From Chlorobium sp. (GTDB taxonomy: Bacteria; Bacteroidota; Chlorobiia; Chlorobiales; Chlorobiaceae), in the NCBI GenBank assembly GCA_005843835.1, contig SZXZ01000002.1, positions 1 to 42,868 on the forward strand: a stretch of DNA of 42,868 nt, in the 5' to 3' direction. A program made the translations under genes and the position numbers. Shown here piece by piece: positions 34,805 through 42,868 of this stretch. The stretch's first letter is position 1. Each line of letters opens with the position of its first letter. The notes beneath the pieces were generated by a model, which worked only from the letters and a program-made list of their open reading frames with translations, searched no databases and was not told where the DNA came from.

Positions 34805-36106
34805 TTATTGTATGTTACGGTTGTCGACCACCCGTTTTGCTTTACCCATACTGCGTTCGATGGTGCCGGGTTCAACCAGCCTGATTATGGCGCTGATGCC
34901 GAGGGTGCTGGAGATATTGGATTTGATTCGCTGTCGAAGTCCTTCAAGCTCTTTCACTTCATCGGAAAAGAATTCCTCCTCAACTTCAACCTGAATTTCC
35001 AGAGTGTCGAGGTTGTTTTCACGATTAACAACAATAAGGTAGTGAGGTTTTGTTTCACTCATTTCCAGAAGAACCGACTCCACCTGTGAGGGGAAGACGT
35101 TGACACCCCTTATAATGAGCATATCGTCCGAACGCCCGACGCACTTTTCCATCCGCACCAGTGTACGCCCGCATTCGCATGTTTCAGCATGAAGACGAGT
35201 CAGGTCACGAGTCCGGTATCGGATCAGCGGCATCGCTTCTTTTGTTACAGTTGTAAAGACCAGTTCCCCAAGTTCTCCGTATGGGAGCACTTCCTCGGTT
35301 TCAGGATTGATAATTTCAGGTATAAAATGATCTTCAAAAATATGCATGCCGCGCTGAAAATGACACTCCATAGAAACACCCGGTCCGATGATTTCCGTAA
35401 GGCCATAGATATCAAAAGCTTTGATGCCGAGTAACTGCTCAATTTGTGACCGCATTTCCGTAGTCCATGGTTCTGCACCGAAAATGCCTGCTCTGAGTTT
35501 GATTTTACCGGGGTCGATTTTTTCTTCTTCCAGAGACTCTCCAAGGTATGCTGCATAGGATGGCGTACAGGCAATTACTGTTGAACCAAAATCTTCAAGC
35601 AGCTGCAATTGCTTTTTTGTATTGCCGCCTGAGATTGGAATAACCGAAGCCCCAACTTTTTCAGCTCCATAGTGCAATCCAAGTCCGCCGGTAAAAAGGC
35701 CGTATCCATAAGCAACCTGGATGATGTCAGATTTAGTTACGTCTGCCATGGTAAGCGAACGGGCGACCACTTCGCTCCACATTTGAATATCGTTATGGGT
35801 GTAACCTACAACTGTCGGTTTCCCGGTTGTTCCGCTTGATGCATGAAATCGAACAATATCCGATTGTGGTAAAGCAAAAAGGCCAAAAGGGTAATTGTCG
35901 CGCAGGTCCTGTTTTGTCGTAAAAGGGAGTTTTTTAAGGTCTTCTATATCCTTGATGTCACCGGGTTCAATTCCCTTTTTCTGCAGCTGCATTTTGTAAA
36001 ACGGAACTGCGTCATAGACCCGTTTTACCAGTTCCTGCAGTCGTTCGCCCTGAACTTTCCGGAGCTCTTCCCGCTCCATACATTCGTAATGTTTGTTCCA
36101 GATCAT
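34805..36106 (-). CDS. paaK: Phenylacetate-CoA ligase
   Basis: PaaK activates phenylacetate or related aryl acids with ATP and CoA to the aryl-acetyl-CoA, AMP and PPi. The 433-residue protein has the normal length. Marks include the adenylate-forming P-loop [17 protein letters not shown], the segment [17 protein letters not shown], the acyl-adenylate motif [25 protein letters not shown], and the C-terminal domain with [20 protein letters not shown]. Its ATG overlaps the iorB stop by four bases (ATGA), so translation is coupled. With IOR it can bring free aryl acids into arylpyruvate synthesis. Confidence 0.93.
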
Positions 36107-36693
36107 GTCTCAGTCGCTTGAGTTTGAGATAATTCCTGTCCTTTTCTGAATGCCCTTATGTTGACATCTACAATCTCAGGGCCTTTTGCGTAAAAGAGCT
36201 CTCCGATAGCGGATTCAAGATGTTCAGCATCAATTCCGATAAACGGCGATGCTGCGCCCAGCATAACCATATTGGATGTTCTTGTATGCCCCGCTTCCCG
36301 GGCCAGTTCAGCTGCGTTAACCAGTAATGGAGAGTTCGTGAGGTGAAGTTCAGTGAGGATATCATCCATATCCGGATAATTCTCCATATTGATAAAGGGA
36401 TCAATCGCGGTTATCACACGACCCTCTGGAGCTAAAAATGGCAGGTAACGAAGTGCTTCATGGGGTTCTACTGAAAGAATCAGATGAGCGGTCCCTTCAG
36501 CAATAAGATCTGAATATATTTCAGAGTTGGATATCCGCAAATGTGACTGTACCGCCCCTCCCCTCTGGCTCATGCCATGTACTTCGGTCTGGCGAATAGT
36601 AAGGCCGCTCCTCAGGGCAGCGTGATCAATTACTGCCGCTATACTTAGAATTCCTTGTCCGCCAACCCCTGCAAGAATAATATTGATGTGCAT
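36103..36693 (-). CDS. iorB: Indolepyruvate:ferredoxin oxidoreductase beta subunit
   Basis: IorB is the gamma-type (catalytic partner) subunit of the 2-oxoacid:ferredoxin oxidoreductase acting on aromatic 2-oxoacids. The 196-residue protein starts [20 protein letters not shown], the nucleotide-binding loop of this family, and has [20 protein letters not shown], also typical. It begins 9 bases after the iorA stop and its end overlaps paaK by four bases. Reaction: arylpyruvate + CoA + oxidised ferredoxin to arylacetyl-CoA + CO2 + reduced ferredoxin, reversible under reducing conditions. Confidence 0.93.
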
Positions 36694-36702
36694 AGTCTTT
36701 TG

Positions 36703-38304
36703 TTACGCGCTGGCCAGTTTGTTACGTTTTTTTCGTGAAGCAGTTTCGATACATTCGCGCTGCGCAATTACAACAGATACACCTTCATAGGTGATCTCCT
36801 CTTTAAGTACCGATATATTTTTTTCTAGGTTTGATTTTAGTGGAACGATTGTTCTGATGTGCTCTTCTTCAACACCGAGTCCTTTGCAAATAGCCAGAAG
36901 TCTCGCCCCAGTTGCTGATGATGCCTGACCACCGGTCATAGCCGTTGTGTCGTTATCGGCAATAATAACAGTAAGTGCAGATCGGTCATTGATAGCATCA
37001 AGCAGACCGGTCATCCCTGAATGAGTAAAAGTCGAATCACCTATCACCGAAACAGCCGGACGAAGACCGGCGTCAGCAGCACCTTTAGCCATTGAGATTG
37101 ATGCTCCCATGTCGACACAGGTATGAATAGCGTTGAATGGTTCAAGTGCACCGAGTGTATAGCAGCCAATGTCTGAAAAGACATGGTGTTCTGCAAATGA
37201 GCTCATGACTAAGTTAAGCGCATCGTATAGGTCACGATGACCACATCCTTTGCAGAGTGATGGGGGACGATGTACAACAATATCTGGAACTTGAGTTACA
37301 GGACTTGTCGTAATACCGAGGCCCTTGACTATAATGTCGGTACTAAGCTCGCCTGCTCTAGGCAGCGTGCCGTCAAGTCGTCCCAGTATGTTTGTGTTGC
37401 CGAAATAACCTCTCAGCAGCTCTTCGTAGACAGGGTAACCCTCTTCAGCGACGAGAATGGTTTCACATTCAAAAAAAAGCTGTTCGACCAGTGTTCTTGG
37501 TAGGGGATATTGTCCAATTTGAAGCACTGGAAAGTCAAGAGCAAACGTCTGTCGAACCTCCATGACATAGTTAAAAGCAAGACCGAATGCAATGACCCCT
37601 TTGGATCCCGAACCCGGGATCAGGCGGTTAAGCCATGAATGCTCAGATAGGGTTTCTAGTTTTTCCTGTAAACTGAGTAAAAGATTGTACTGCTTGCGGG
37701 CATTTTGCGGGATCAGGACAAATCTTTCCGGTGAATAAACGGATTGCAAAGGGTTCTGTATACGCTTGTCAGCCTGAGTCACACCTGCACGGGAATGTGC
37801 AAGTCTTGTTGTAAGTCGCAGCATTACAGGAAGCTTTACCGATTCCGACAGATCAAAAGCATCACGAGCAGCGGTGTACAAATCCTGTTGAGAAGAAGGC
37901 TCAAGGACCGGTATCATGGCAAACTTACCGTAGACCCTGCTATCCTGTTCGTTTTGAGATGAGTGCATAGAAGGGTCATCAGCAACAGCAATCACCAGCC
38001 CTCCGTTTACACCTGTAATCGCGGAATTAATAAAAGCGTCAGCAGCAACGTTAAGGCCGACATGTTTCATGCATACCAGACTCCGTTTGCCGGCATAGGA
38101 CATACCAAGAGCTTCTTCATAAGCTGTTTTTTCATTGACAGACCATGAAGATCTAATAAGTTGGCTACTGCGGTTACTATTTTTTTGAATGTATTCGGTG
38201 ATTTCAGTCGAAGGGGTTCCCGGATAGGCATAGACACCGGATATCCCGGCATCAAGAGCACCAAGAGCAATTGCTTCCGCTCCCAGTAAAAGTTTTTTTT
38301 CCAT
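36703..38304 (-). CDS. iorA: Indolepyruvate:ferredoxin oxidoreductase alpha subunit, lacking the ferredoxin domain
   Basis: IorA carries the thiamine diphosphate site of the arylpyruvate oxidoreductase. The 533-residue protein starts LLLGAEAIALGALDAGISGV then YAYPGTPSTEITEYI, and has the TPP region with CKGCGHRDLYDALN, GCYTLGALEPFN and GDSTFTHSGMTGL, followed by DNDTTAMTGGQ. It stops soon after VVIAQRECIETA. In archaeal IorA (about 600-650 residues) a C-terminal domain with cysteines for two [4Fe-4S] clusters follows this point; no such cysteines exist here. The shorter form may be normal in this lineage; electrons would then leave by a separate ferredoxin. First gene of the operon. Confidence 0.9.
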   Translation of the reverse strand: MEKKLLLGAEAIALGALDAGISGVYAYPGTPSTEITEYIQKNSNRSSQLIRSSWSVNEKTAYEEALGMSYAGKRSLVCMKHVGLNVAADAFINSAITGVNGGLVIAVADDPSMHSSQNEQDSRVYGKFAMIPVLEPSSQQDLYTAARDAFDLSESVKLPVMLRLTTRLAHSRAGVTQADKRIQNPLQSVYSPERFVLIPQNARKQYNLLLSLQEKLETLSEHSWLNRLIPGSGSKGVIAFGLAFNYVMEVRQTFALDFPVLQIGQYPLPRTLVEQLFFECETILVAEEGYPVYEELLRGYFGNTNILGRLDGTLPRAGELSTDIIVKGLGITTSPVTQVPDIVVHRPPSLCKGCGHRDLYDALNLVMSSFAEHHVFSDIGCYTLGALEPFNAIHTCVDMGASISMAKGAADAGLRPAVSVIGDSTFTHSGMTGLLDAINDRSALTVIIADNDTTAMTGGQASSATGARLLAICKGLGVEEEHIRTIVPLKSNLEKNISVLKEEITYEGVSVVIAQRECIETASRKKRNKLASA

Positions 38305-38482: not shown

Positions 38483-41188
38483 TCATTTTGTTTCGGGAGC
38501 TTGTACCGGGGGCGCTGGTTCCGGTACTGGCGGGACTGTAATAGTCAAGTTTAAGTCCAGGAGATAGTTGTCTTTTATGATAAAAGCACGTTTAGGGGCT
38601 TCAGGTACAGGTCGACCTTCCAATGATTGGGCCATAATTTGGTAGGAGCCGTTTCGAAGGGCATCAGCCCGGTAGTAACCAAATTCGTTTGTGAGTGTTT
38701 GGGATACAGGTTTATTGTCTTTGCCTGTAATGATCATCATGACATTTCCTATACCGTTGCCCGTGGAATCTGATACCAGTCCAGCAATACCAAACTCGGC
38801 ATAAACGGGGATATTGATACCTGTAACCGCACCATTTTTAACTTCGACTTTTCTTTCTTTTTGGTCGATCACAAGCTCAATAGGTAATTTTTCAGGGTCA
38901 ACAGTTACTCGGTATACGCCTGGTTGAAGGCTGCCTATAAAGAATGACCCATCCATCTGGCGCTGTTGCATATTTCTGCCGTTCAGCAGTATGCTGATAT
39001 TGTTAATGTCGGAAGATGAAAGCTTTGTGTCATTTGCGATATCAAGAGAGCCGGCAATAGCTCCCCTTGTAAGTGTGACTGCATTTCTGTTAATGGGGAA
39101 GAGTCCCTTATTCGACCACCCAAGGTCCCATGACAGAGATATGGCAAGGCTTTTCTGTGCTTCAGGGGTGATAACTCCGGTCACTATGTTGCCCATATTA
39201 AGACTGGTCGCATTGTTCATATTATAACTGTATTGCATTGCCAGTCTTAATCCGTTATTGACTTGCCTCGTCAACGAACCGCCAATACCGACAGCATTGC
39301 CCGAACGGGACATGGTTGTTTGAATCAGGTCTTTTTTGGAGTGCCCTGGTGACCAGTCTATGATAAGATTAGAAAGATTAGTCCGGCTTGATATTGAGTA
39401 ATCATTTAAAACTCTGACAGTTAGATGTTCGTTGAAATCGCGCTGGATATCGGCAGTGGCAATTTTATTTTGATAAATAGCGTGGATAGTATTATGATCG
39501 CCAACCCGAAGCCCTGCATCATAGCGATAGCTTGCATTATCGTCCGGGGTGGCAGATAAAGTAACGCGTGACACTGGAGAGAGACTGGCAGCCGGCATTG
39601 CATAATCATGAATTACAATCCCCCCCTGCTTTTCATAATGAGCAATCATTTGTAAACCCATCCCTGTGAAAGGATTTAGAGACCATCGGAACAAATGATT
39701 GATATCCTTCTGTTGCCCTGTACTTGCAAAATTTGCTTTGCGCAAGGTGCCCCAATATGAGGTATTCCAGAGTTTGTAGTGCCCTTCAAGCCTAGCATCT
39801 GCACCATAATTCTGGTTTGACCTTGCGCCGTATAGTGCTGTAGTCCAGTTAGCTCCTGGAGTGTATATTAATCCGGTCAGCAAGTCAGCACTTCCAAGGG
39901 CTGGGTTATCCTGTGTGGCAGCTTCAAGAGTCAGGCGGTCGTTCAGTCCATAAAGAAGATTTCCAAATGCTGTTGTTGTATGAATCTCACCAGCAAGGCT
40001 GCTGAGTAACGTACCCGACTTACCAACGCCCCCTCTAATAAGAAGTTCGCCCTTTGACTGGGCTCTGCTTGATATTGACTGACTGTAGTCAATAACCTTT
40101 ATAGGCTTTTCATTAATGGAACTTTCGTAGATATAAACTTCAGTCTTTCGCAGGTCCGTCGACATTCTTACGTTCTCAAAAACAAACTTTCCATCAAGAC
40201 TGATTCTTTGCCTTGCAACAACGACACCGTCAAAGCGAAGTTCGGCTATACTGGCAGGTGGCCCAGCGCCTTCTATGGTCCGTAGTTGATTTGAGTCGAG
40301 ATTTAAAAAGACATCGCTTGCGTTACTCTGTTCGGTATCGAGTTGTTTAAGAATTGAATGATTATTCCATCCGACCTGCATGCCGGTAAGATTCGTAGAA
40401 CCAATGAGCGAGTAACTTCCAGAGTTTCCGGTGCCGAGTCGAAGAGCAAGATTGTTATTGAAGGTCGTCCAATTGTATCGGGTCGGCGTAAATCCTTCTC
40501 CAGGATTTCCTTGAGCTGTTATATCCCATACCCCTCCGATCACCCTTCCACTTGTTTCGAGAAGTAGGTTTTTATAGATATTTTTGTTGAAATCATAAGC
40601 ACTTTGAGCTTCTATACCTATGAAAGAAATTGAGCTTTTTGGTGCTTTAATATCTGCAATGTCTTCAATTTTTTTCCCTGGAAGACCGGGATTCCAAGGA
40701 ATATTCATCATTACAGCAAAGAGCGACTGGTTAAATTCCGGCGCTGTAAGAAAAACATTTTTGAGGTCTGTGAATGAAATATAGGGAAGCGAATTAAGGA
40801 CTTTAAGCGCACCAGTATTGAAGTTGATAACACCGAGAGTTGTCTGGTAATGAGCGATTGGTCCGGACCGACTTGATTCTTTTAAATGAGTTGTTTCCAG
40901 AAAGAGTGAAAACGGAATCCAGAACTCATTTTTTTGACGATAAATAGTGTCTTCTTTTTGAAGACGGTTGTTCACGTATAATCCGACGAAAAGCGATTCA
41001 GCATCAGAAAAAACAACCGCATCAGCATTTTGTAGTTGCTGTTTTGCGTTCTCTTTCGTTCCCTGATCAACAAGTGCTGTTTTTTCTGATACGTTCGCGG
41101 TTGCAGCGGTTGGGAAGATGACAGGAGTGAAGGCAGAAAGTGCCCAAACAATAGAGACGAAAATTTTATAGAAAGAGGGGCAACTCAA
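38483..41188 (-). CDS. Divergent chaperone-usher outer membrane usher with an extra C-terminal domain
   Basis: This is a predicted outer-membrane pore and assembly platform for a secreted fibre. The 901-residue protein has a signal peptide (about 1-32, ending TAATA) and an N-terminal usher-like domain (about 60-170, FVGLYVNNRLQKED). A beta-barrel region is rich in alternating aromatic residues, and a plug-like segment is seen at about 310-400 (GPPASIAELRFDGVVVARQR, then GKFVFENVRM). C-terminal domains follow at about 735-830 (FIGSLQPGVYRVTVDPEKLP). After these a carboxypeptidase-regulatory-like beta domain (about 800-870, NEFGYYRADALRNGSYQIMA) and a Pro-rich tail (PPVPEPAPPVQAPETK) are added, unlike FimD/PapC. 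It lies 12 bases after the chaperone gene. Sequence likeness to classical ushers is low, and the family call rests on domain order and context. Confidence 0.7.
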   Translation of the reverse strand: MSCPSFYKIFVSIVWALSAFTPVIFPTAATANVSEKTALVDQGTKENAKQQLQNADAVVFSDAESLFVGLYVNNRLQKEDTIYRQKNEFWIPFSLFLETTHLKESSRSGPIAHYQTTLGVINFNTGALKVLNSLPYISFTDLKNVFLTAPEFNQSLFAVMMNIPWNPGLPGKKIEDIADIKAPKSSISFIGIEAQSAYDFNKNIYKNLLLETSGRVIGGVWDITAQGNPGEGFTPTRYNWTTFNNNLALRLGTGNSGSYSLIGSTNLTGMQVGWNNHSILKQLDTEQSNASDVFLNLDSNQLRTIEGAGPPASIAELRFDGVVVARQRISLDGKFVFENVRMSTDLRKTEVYIYESSINEKPIKVIDYSQSISSRAQSKGELLIRGGVGKSGTLLSSLAGEIHTTTAFGNLLYGLNDRLTLEAATQDNPALGSADLLTGLIYTPGANWTTALYGARSNQNYGADARLEGHYKLWNTSYWGTLRKANFASTGQQKDINHLFRWSLNPFTGMGLQMIAHYEKQGGIVIHDYAMPAASLSPVSRVTLSATPDDNASYRYDAGLRVGDHNTIHAIYQNKIATADIQRDFNEHLTVRVLNDYSISSRTNLSNLIIDWSPGHSKKDLIQTTMSRSGNAVGIGGSLTRQVNNGLRLAMQYSYNMNNATSLNMGNIVTGVITPEAQKSLAISLSWDLGWSNKGLFPINRNAVTLTRGAIAGSLDIANDTKLSSSDINNISILLNGRNMQQRQMDGSFFIGSLQPGVYRVTVDPEKLPIELVIDQKERKVEVKNGAVTGINIPVYAEFGIAGLVSDSTGNGIGNVMMIITGKDNKPVSQTLTNEFGYYRADALRNGSYQIMAQSLEGRPVPEAPKRAFIIKDNYLLDLNLTITVPPVPEPAPPVQAPETK

Positions 41189-41200
41189 TAATTTATTTTT

Positions 41201-42025
41201 TTAGGGGAATAATTTTTCAATTCTCTTGTCATCAATAGTTCCCTGCACTGCAACAGTGTAGTCACCGGATTTTGAATCAGGAACAGGAATTGTTGTGGTG
41301 ATAGTTCGCCGATTACCTGCGAGAACAGGAGTATTGTTCATTGCACCGACAGCAATAAAACCTTCAGGCAATTTTTTATCCTTAGGCCAGTTGAGGTAGT
41401 TGCTCATGGATTTAAACCCGGGGAACGTACCTTTTTTCCAGATGGCATAATCACCTTTTAATCGGGTGTGCACATTGCCGTTATTCTGCAGATCAACATG
41501 CAGTGCGCCTGATGTTCTGTCGAGCATTAAATTGTTTAATACCGCAGCGTGTTTTACCGGGTCAGTATAGCCATAGATTCCCACCCCAAGCTTGAATAAA
41601 ACTTCCACGCCTCCAGATGCTGATGAGGGTTGTTCTAAAAAATAGACAACAGCTCTATGTTCACCTGGAGTTGGAACTACTCGAGGACGAACTGAAAAAC
41701 GGATAACCTGTTCCTTACCGGGTTCTACAGTAAAGGATAGGGGATTTATCACCATCCATTGGTCAATTGATTGCGGGTTGGGGGGGAGAATTTTTACCTC
41801 ATTCTTTTCATCGAGAGCCCAGTTATAAACTTCAACTTTAAGGGTAATCGGGTTTTTTTTCAGGTTTTTTATTCTAAGAGACTCATTGACTGGCTGTGAG
41901 CCAATCTTTAGCTCGAACATTGCAGGAGATACGGCAATTTGACCGGGTGGATCATCAGCACGCAGGCTATTTGTCGAAAAAACAGAAAGCCACAGAATAC
42001 CGAAGATTACAATAAAGCGCCTCAT
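41201..42025 (-). CDS. PapD-like periplasmic pilus chaperone
   Basis: This is a predicted periplasmic chaperone for the neighbouring secreted subunit. The 274-residue protein has a signal peptide (about 1-23, ending SLRA) and a first immunoglobulin-like domain with IAVSPAMFELKIGSQPVNES, WMVINPLSFTVEPGKEQVIR and FSVRPRVVPTPGEHRAVVYF. These match the pattern of PapD-type chaperones (P-x-x-x-x-(I/L), basic residues in strand G region, then E-x-R-A). A second domain (about 160-274) follows. It starts two bases after the subunit stop and precedes the usher. Confidence 0.75.
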   Translation of the reverse strand: MRRFIVIFGILWLSVFSTNSLRADDPPGQIAVSPAMFELKIGSQPVNESLRIKNLKKNPITLKVEVYNWALDEKNEVKILPPNPQSIDQWMVINPLSFTVEPGKEQVIRFSVRPRVVPTPGEHRAVVYFLEQPSSASGGVEVLFKLGVGIYGYTDPVKHAAVLNNLMLDRTSGALHVDLQNNGNVHTRLKGDYAIWKKGTFPGFKSMSNYLNWPKDKKLPEGFIAVGAMNNTPVLAGNRRTITTTIPVPDSKSGDYTVAVQGTIDDKRIEKLFP

Positions 42026-42027
42026 TA

Positions 42028-42648
42028 TTACTGAAAATTTACACCAGTGACATTGACTTTTATAGTACCAGTATAAGTGCCAGTTCGACTGGCCTTACTA
42101 AAGTCAAAGTAGAGTGTTAGCTGTTCTTTCAATGTCCAATTATTGCTACTTTTTGTTGGTGTTATAAAGGTTTTTGCATAAGTAACAGGAACAGTTGACG
42201 TACCATTTGTAAAGTCAGAAACTGTGTATGATGTTGTATAGGTTGGTGGATTGCTTGTGGTAAATGAGCTTGTTCTAAATGTCCAAGTCCATATCGGGTT
42301 GATCGTGCGTGATACTGTCAATGGATTCGGATCAGTCTGTGTGAGATCGAGACTTGTTGGCGCGTCAAAATTTATGTTGTATGAATTACTACCAGTATAG
42401 ATTATTGTCGCCTGTGGCAAAATTTCTGTTCCTGATATATTTGAGAGACTGGGATTACTAGAAATAGTAAAAATTGAATTAGTGACTGTTGGTAGTGCCG
42501 CATGCAGAGTGCAGGCGAATAGCAAATTAACTGACACAACTATCAGAAACAGTCTGAGATGTTGTAGTGCATTTTCAGCTATGCGTTCAATTATTCCTTG
42601 ATTAACGGTATTATCTGCGCTTAGGTTTGTTATGAATCGTTTCAGCAT
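42028..42648 (-). CDS. Secreted beta-rich subunit, putative pilin of the chaperone-usher-like locus
   Basis: This 206-residue exported protein is rich in Thr, Ser and Asn, with alternating polar/hydrophobic strands (TYTTSYTVSDFTNGTS, KEQLTLYFDFSKASRTGTY). The signal segment is unusual: about 32 residues precede the hydrophobic stretch LFLIVVSVNLLFA, and cleavage probably falls after LHA (about residue 50). The mature part has no cysteine. The final strand (GTYTGTIKVNVTGVNF) resembles the closing strand of pilins, which supports a subunit role, but no pilin family is recognised. It is the first gene of the three-gene locus, 2 bases before the chaperone gene. Confidence 0.55.
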   Translation of the reverse strand: MLKRFITNLSADNTVNQGIIERIAENALQHLRLFLIVVSVNLLFACTLHAALPTVTNSIFTISSNPSLSNISGTEILPQATIIYTGSNSYNINFDAPTSLDLTQTDPNPLTVSRTINPIWTWTFRTSSFTTSNPPTYTTSYTVSDFTNGTSTVPVTYAKTFITPTKSSNNWTLKEQLTLYFDFSKASRTGTYTGTIKVNVTGVNFQ

Positions 42649-42868
42649 GATGTAGTGGTGGTTATGCTTTTCTTAAAGTCAACCAGACGTGGAAATATTG
42701 AATTATGTTTATGGCGAGCATGTATAGGTATATCAAATGTCTTCTGTCTATAGGCAAGCCAACTGGAATTCATCAACAATAAATTAAAAGGAACAGATGT
42801 ACTTATAGTTATTACACTTTAGGGGTGTTTTTTAAAGGTAATTTTTTTTCTTCTTTTATTTACTAGTT
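42649..42868 (-). promoter_or_regulatory. Upstream region of the chaperone-usher-like operon
   Basis: This AT-rich stretch to the window edge has no gene. On the minus strand a TTGCCT followed after 17 bases by GATATA lies within about 42725-42760 and could be a weak promoter. No operator repeat was found. The region beyond the window may hold further genes of the locus. Confidence 0.3.

Follow-up and report, generated by a model that had tools for sequence, protein, structure and literature searches.

A divergent chaperone-usher-like operon as a candidate for surface fibers in a green sulfur bacterium

In the chaperone-usher pathway, subunits are stabilized by a chaperone through donor-strand complementation, delivered to the N-terminal domain of the usher, and joined by donor-strand exchange through the usher pore. 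In the ushers FimD and PapC, the plug comes after barrel strand 6. Archaic (sigma) systems were placed in Proteobacteria, Cyanobacteria, and Deinococcus-Thermus by a structural study of 2015 (PMC4654587). Genome studies of net- or consortium-type green sulfur bacteria have explained cell-cell contact by Tad pili and giant adhesins, with no mention of an usher (PMC7762298, PMC4053972). Literature searches returned no description of fimbriae or ushers in any green sulfur bacterium, nor one for DUF4402.

The window, that is, the whole stretch of 42,868 nucleotides analyzed here, is an entire contig (G000:C131:1-42868) of a Chlorobium assembly of 2.09 Mb that is 88.7% complete. Close to one end it carries three minus-strand ORFs which, read from 42648 to 38483, encode 206, 274, and 901 aa and are separated by exactly 2 and 12 bases:

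42649..42868, no strand: AT-rich non-coding stretch reaching the contig end; a promoter or a further pilin gene may lie here or beyond
42028..42648, minus strand: pilin-like subunit (type B), 206 aa; an ORF whose family lies beside chaperone and usher homologues
41201..42025, minus strand: PapD-like periplasmic chaperone, 274 aa; PapD_N, archaic-chaperone profile match, hallmark residues
38483..41188, minus strand: predicted divergent outer-membrane usher, 901 aa, TTG start; AlphaFold2 (AF2) model, FimD/PapC fold matches, DUF4402-linked homology

These ORFs, their order, and the two gaps had been described in the initial annotation and are real, as judged from the ORF coordinates and from relatives arranged in the same order. 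Many other genomes contain relatives of all three genes in this order; the trio therefore lies far beyond chance. Scans for promoters, covering the AT-rich end stretch, and for terminators found sites no more numerous than in shuffled sequences. Downstream of the usher gene, on the same strand (34805-38304), genes were read as indolepyruvate ferredoxin oxidoreductase subunits and a phenylacetate-CoA ligase-like protein; these were not seen as conserved operon neighbors.

The 901-aa protein was modeled with AF2 from 25 homologues (mean pLDDT 76.8, pTM 0.58). The predicted order is an N-terminal domain, six strands, a small beta domain, ∼18 more strands, and C-terminal beta domains:

40703..40999, minus strand: predicted usher N-terminal domain, residues 64-162; AF2 secondary structure
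40364..40633, minus strand: first six predicted barrel strands, residues 186-275; AF2 secondary structure
40127..40285, minus strand: plug-like domain, residues 302-354; AF2 secondary structure
39038..40045, minus strand: remaining predicted barrel strands, residues 382-717; AF2 secondary structure
38576..38992, minus strand: C-terminal beta-sandwich domains, residues 733-871; Pfam (1.4e-10) and AF2

The core of the plug-like domain, GPPAGIAELRFDG, is strongly conserved. When the model was used to search the PDB for similar folds, FimD or PapC took each of the first 18 places (lowest E 1.6e-25, at ∼10% identity), followed by an Ig-domain protein (2.6e-10) and, from ∼3e-6, by ordinary barrels. 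The prediction thus contains what defines an usher, an N-terminal domain, a plug between strands 6 and 7, and C-terminal domains, at moderate TM-scores to FimD/PapC of 0.45 and 0.51. As these scores are accompanied by an rmsd of 14, the orientation of the domains in the model is not trustworthy. Sequence families behaved differently from the fold: in Pfam/NCBIfam searches, the 901-aa protein matched neither Usher nor PapC_N, and only CarboxypepD_reg was recognized, at residues 801-857 (Pfam 1.4e-10), a domain present in 25/25 usher homologues. Neither the window protein and its 25 homologues nor the genome yielded a match to Pfam Usher (PF00577); an E. coli control was matched. Single-sequence PDB searches with the usher, the chaperone, and the proteins of the second family described below yielded nothing useful; with the usher profile, only the generic C-terminal domain was matched in the PDB, and a plasmid search with the window usher returned only weak C-terminal matches. 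At one locus (L066, 10038-12797), either an in-frame stop or a sequence error divides the usher homologue into ORFs of 357 and 542 aa.

The PapD_N match of the 274-aa protein (23.3 bits) lies barely above the cut-off of 23; the same domain matches 20 of its 28 relatives. A profile of these chaperones matched a Variovorax chaperone from a locus annotated as spore-coat-U plus usher (E 2e-11) and a Deinococcus chaperone (E 3e-9); these E-values are from single pairwise comparisons, in which reversed and shuffled decoys reached 0.04 or worse. FimC and YehC, as single sequences, did not match the profile. P95 and R124 align with Pro59 and Arg89 of CsuC (R124 was placed via the Variovorax chaperone), and an alignment of 12 members shows R124 in every sequence and P95 in nearly all. 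Where CsuC has its anchor residue Tyr196, the aligned residue is a proline (P233), so that this tyrosine is lacking. PapD_N, the archaic profile homology, and P95 together point to a two-domain PapD-like chaperone with the superfamily proline. Judged by its sequence, the protein belongs with the PapD-like chaperones, is a homologue of the archaic (sigma) ones, and has a non-classical anchoring arginine. Several neighborhoods of chaperone relatives are worth recording. An orphan chaperone accompanied by a pilin-like gene, but without usher, occurs at loci L057 (8508-10048), L068 (7675-9184), and L069 (6540-8234), each time near a PAS-domain hybrid histidine kinase, the full operon being elsewhere in those genomes. 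A phosphate-binding-like periplasmic protein adjoins a chaperone or usher homologue at L046 (5711-10168) and L041 (8649-9479), followed at L046 by a 7TMR-DISM histidine kinase and a response-regulator-like protein; this group is possibly a sensing module. On plasmid MP1 of Deinococcus radiodurans (L106, 6108-9006), a gene for a molecular chaperone is followed by an overlapping one for a 729-aa "hypothetical protein" at the usher position.

The 206-aa subunit combines a signal sequence, a Thr/Ser-rich beta domain, and a C-terminal strand motif, SGxYxGxI. The predicted mature part consists of 35% S+T, in agreement with the Thr/Ser-rich product proposed initially, and contains no cysteine. Iterated profiles grouped the subunit with ∼75 ORFs, nearly all of which adjoin chaperone or usher homologues. 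This family splits into types A and B, the window subunit belonging to B; profiles of the two types are homologous (E 4e-9 versus 0.05 for a reversed decoy), and both share the terminal strand motif, as SGxYxG or SGxHxG. Type-A pilins are also weakly related to DUF4402 proteins (2.5e-5). The AF2 model of the subunit has a confident beta core, and a fold search with it gave no significant match; among its weak hits, CfaB, FimA, CooA, PapK, and CsuA/B were mixed with unrelated Ig proteins. No pilin family in the sequence libraries matched the subunit either. Family membership and context, rather than fold, make it a probable pilin.

At least 22 related loci have the order two to five pilins, chaperone, usher, which makes the single subunit of the window atypical; the few related loci with one pilin are those where the mechanical ORF caller lost genes, too. 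The notion of a minimal set with one subunit therefore finds no support as a general feature, the window being cut at the contig end. In none of the loci could a gene be assigned to a tip adhesin. A type-A pilin was not found in the window's own assembly, and the 220 bases between the subunit gene and the upstream contig end hold no recognizable pilin remnant, pilin similarity there being not above chance. In two relatives, identical type-A pilin genes stand in tandem (L046, 10357-12200; L070, 4444-6056). Such copies suggest a duplication, or gene conversion, in the recent past and could break assemblies. For the window, whose end was checked and is not repeated within its own assembly, a break at such genes is unproven.

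Full-length usher homologues were found in 21 of 65 genomes of the window's genus and in seven genomes of a sister genus (Chlorobiaceae). A sample of ∼395 genomes from the phylum contained no further full-length homologue, only the generic C-terminal domain being matched, and a search of genome contigs returned one relative, an uncultured Chlorobiaceae MAG with 59% identity. The initial annotation had advised looking for the same trio in other green sulfur bacteria, where it was indeed found, in the same order, in many genomes. The suspected restriction to a lineage is likewise upheld: the trio recurs in roughly one in three genomes of the genus and in the sister genus, not beyond.

Of 65 genomes examined in the genus, 15 have a related operon comprising DUF4402 pilins, a PapD-like chaperone, and a large CarboxypepD_reg protein of ∼900 aa; three of these 15 have both operon families. 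Its pilins are clear members of DUF4402 (5.7e-27), in contrast to the window pilin, which scored 9.4 bits (E 2.1) versus a cut-off of 25.2. Homology between the large protein and the window usher covers nearly their full length, 748 columns (E 1e-12), and that between the chaperones of the two families covers 228 columns (E 1.9e-12), both with clean decoys. Like the window usher, the large protein did not match Usher at the cut-off (best E 0.42); it made weak contact with classical ushers (6.8e-5). The second family, whose neighbors include annotated fimbrial chaperones, is also found elsewhere in the phylum, and plasmids of Polaromonas, Novosphingobium, Sphingopyxis, and Pseudoalteromonas carry relatives. 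These plasmid relatives, several of them annotated as "carboxypeptidase regulatory-like", are adjoined by DUF4402 and chaperone genes. Loci of this family (L073, 3973-10600; L097, 7458-10199; L075; L076) are not annotated as ushers.

Taken together, the best explanation of the trio is a chaperone-usher operon of a divergent, non-classical kind that would build a surface fiber; to this we assign a probability of roughly 0.86. For it speak the AF2 domain order, the FimD/PapC matches, PapD_N and the archaic-chaperone homology, P95/R124, the conserved gene order, and the homology to the second family; against it, the missing Usher, PapC_N, and pilin family matches, the TM-scores, the unmatched subunit fold, the proline at Tyr196, the marginal PapD_N score, and the single visible pilin. 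The chaperone-usher identity proposed in the initial annotation is thereby sustained by the predicted usher fold, the chaperone homologies, and a subunit from a pilin-like family beside chaperones and ushers. The profile searches it had called for delivered only in part, as PapD_N exceeded its cut-off and Usher, PapC_N, and the pilin families went unmatched.

Least probable is that an unrelated outer-membrane barrel (a TonB receptor, an LptD-like protein, or another secretion pore) lies beside an Ig-like protein. The missing Usher match and the generic CarboxypepD_reg domain would be compatible with it, but in the fold search FimD/PapC outranked generic barrels by a wide margin, no profile similarity to FhuA or LptD emerged, and the gene is conserved in its coupling to PapD-like chaperone and pilin-like genes; the TonB-receptor and LptD-like readings were rejected on the fold ranking and the FhuA/LptD result. 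That the trio is a decaying or incomplete copy, which lost its other pilin and makes no fiber any more, appears improbable: the single pilin, the want of type A in the assembly, and the remnant-free upstream bases agree with decay, whereas none of the three frames is broken and each is conserved, the contig of this incomplete assembly ends at the locus, and pilin genes in relatives can be spaced by 240-620 bases. A less remote, though still unlikely, variant is a chaperone-usher machine whose linear polymers form a capsule-like coat, thin and flexible (Caf1-type), instead of a defined adhesive pilus. Such a coat would fit the small number of subunit types at each locus and the fact that no gene for a large two-domain adhesin was found beside any of the loci; two distinct pilin types in most relatives fit a composite fiber.

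If the trio is a chaperone-usher operon, the signal sequence would export the 206-aa subunit into the periplasm, where the 274-aa chaperone, to judge from its hallmark residues, would capture it by a lent beta strand, the conserved arginine gripping its C-terminus. According to the predicted fold, the N-terminal domain of the 901-aa usher would receive the chaperone-subunit complex, and the plug in the barrel would gate the usher, through whose pore subunits would be polymerized and exported. In relatives, the fiber would contain at least two pilin types; a further pilin gene of the window would lie beyond the contig end or be missing. We infer assembly and function of the window system from its parts list, namely gene order, homology, predicted fold, and chaperone hallmarks.

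The trio is a concrete candidate for surface fibers in green sulfur bacteria; its involvement in aggregation, net formation, or consortia is speculation. The loci would extend the range of archaic-like chaperone-usher systems to green sulfur bacteria and, via the related family, to other members of the phylum. It is plausible that the trio belongs to a wider, unannotated branch of the pathway. We lean towards uniting it with the DUF4402-linked operons in a further, unrecognized branch marked by the lack of the Pfam Usher signature, a CarboxypepD_reg C-terminus, and archaic-like chaperones, and spread over green sulfur bacteria, phylum relatives, and Proteobacteria; its ushers would be those now annotated as "carboxypeptidase regulatory-like" or hypothetical. 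The loci indicate that automated annotation misses a class of ushers; the window pore has diverged so far that it goes unrecognized by protein-family libraries.

Compared with known systems, the window shares with archaic (sigma) pili, such as Csu of Acinetobacter, the operon plan and a chaperone that is homologous to the archaic-type chaperone of Variovorax and carries the Pro59/Arg89 hallmarks. It differs from this class in that its usher profile touched the archaic usher tested at the C-terminus alone, and weakly (5e-5), its cysteine-free subunit did not match spore-coat-U subunits by profile, and its chaperone has no equivalent of Tyr196. The classical FimD/PapC systems (type 1 and P pili) resemble it in predicted usher fold and domain order, whereas identity is only ∼10%, neither usher nor chaperone is matched by sequence profile, the window usher ends in CarboxypepD_reg, and a FimH-like adhesin is missing from the locus. 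The DUF4402-linked operons of Chlorobium, phylum relatives, and Proteobacterial plasmids have their own DUF4402 pilins, to which the window pilin has but a weak profile link, yet they share with the window the operon plan as well as homologous large proteins and chaperones.
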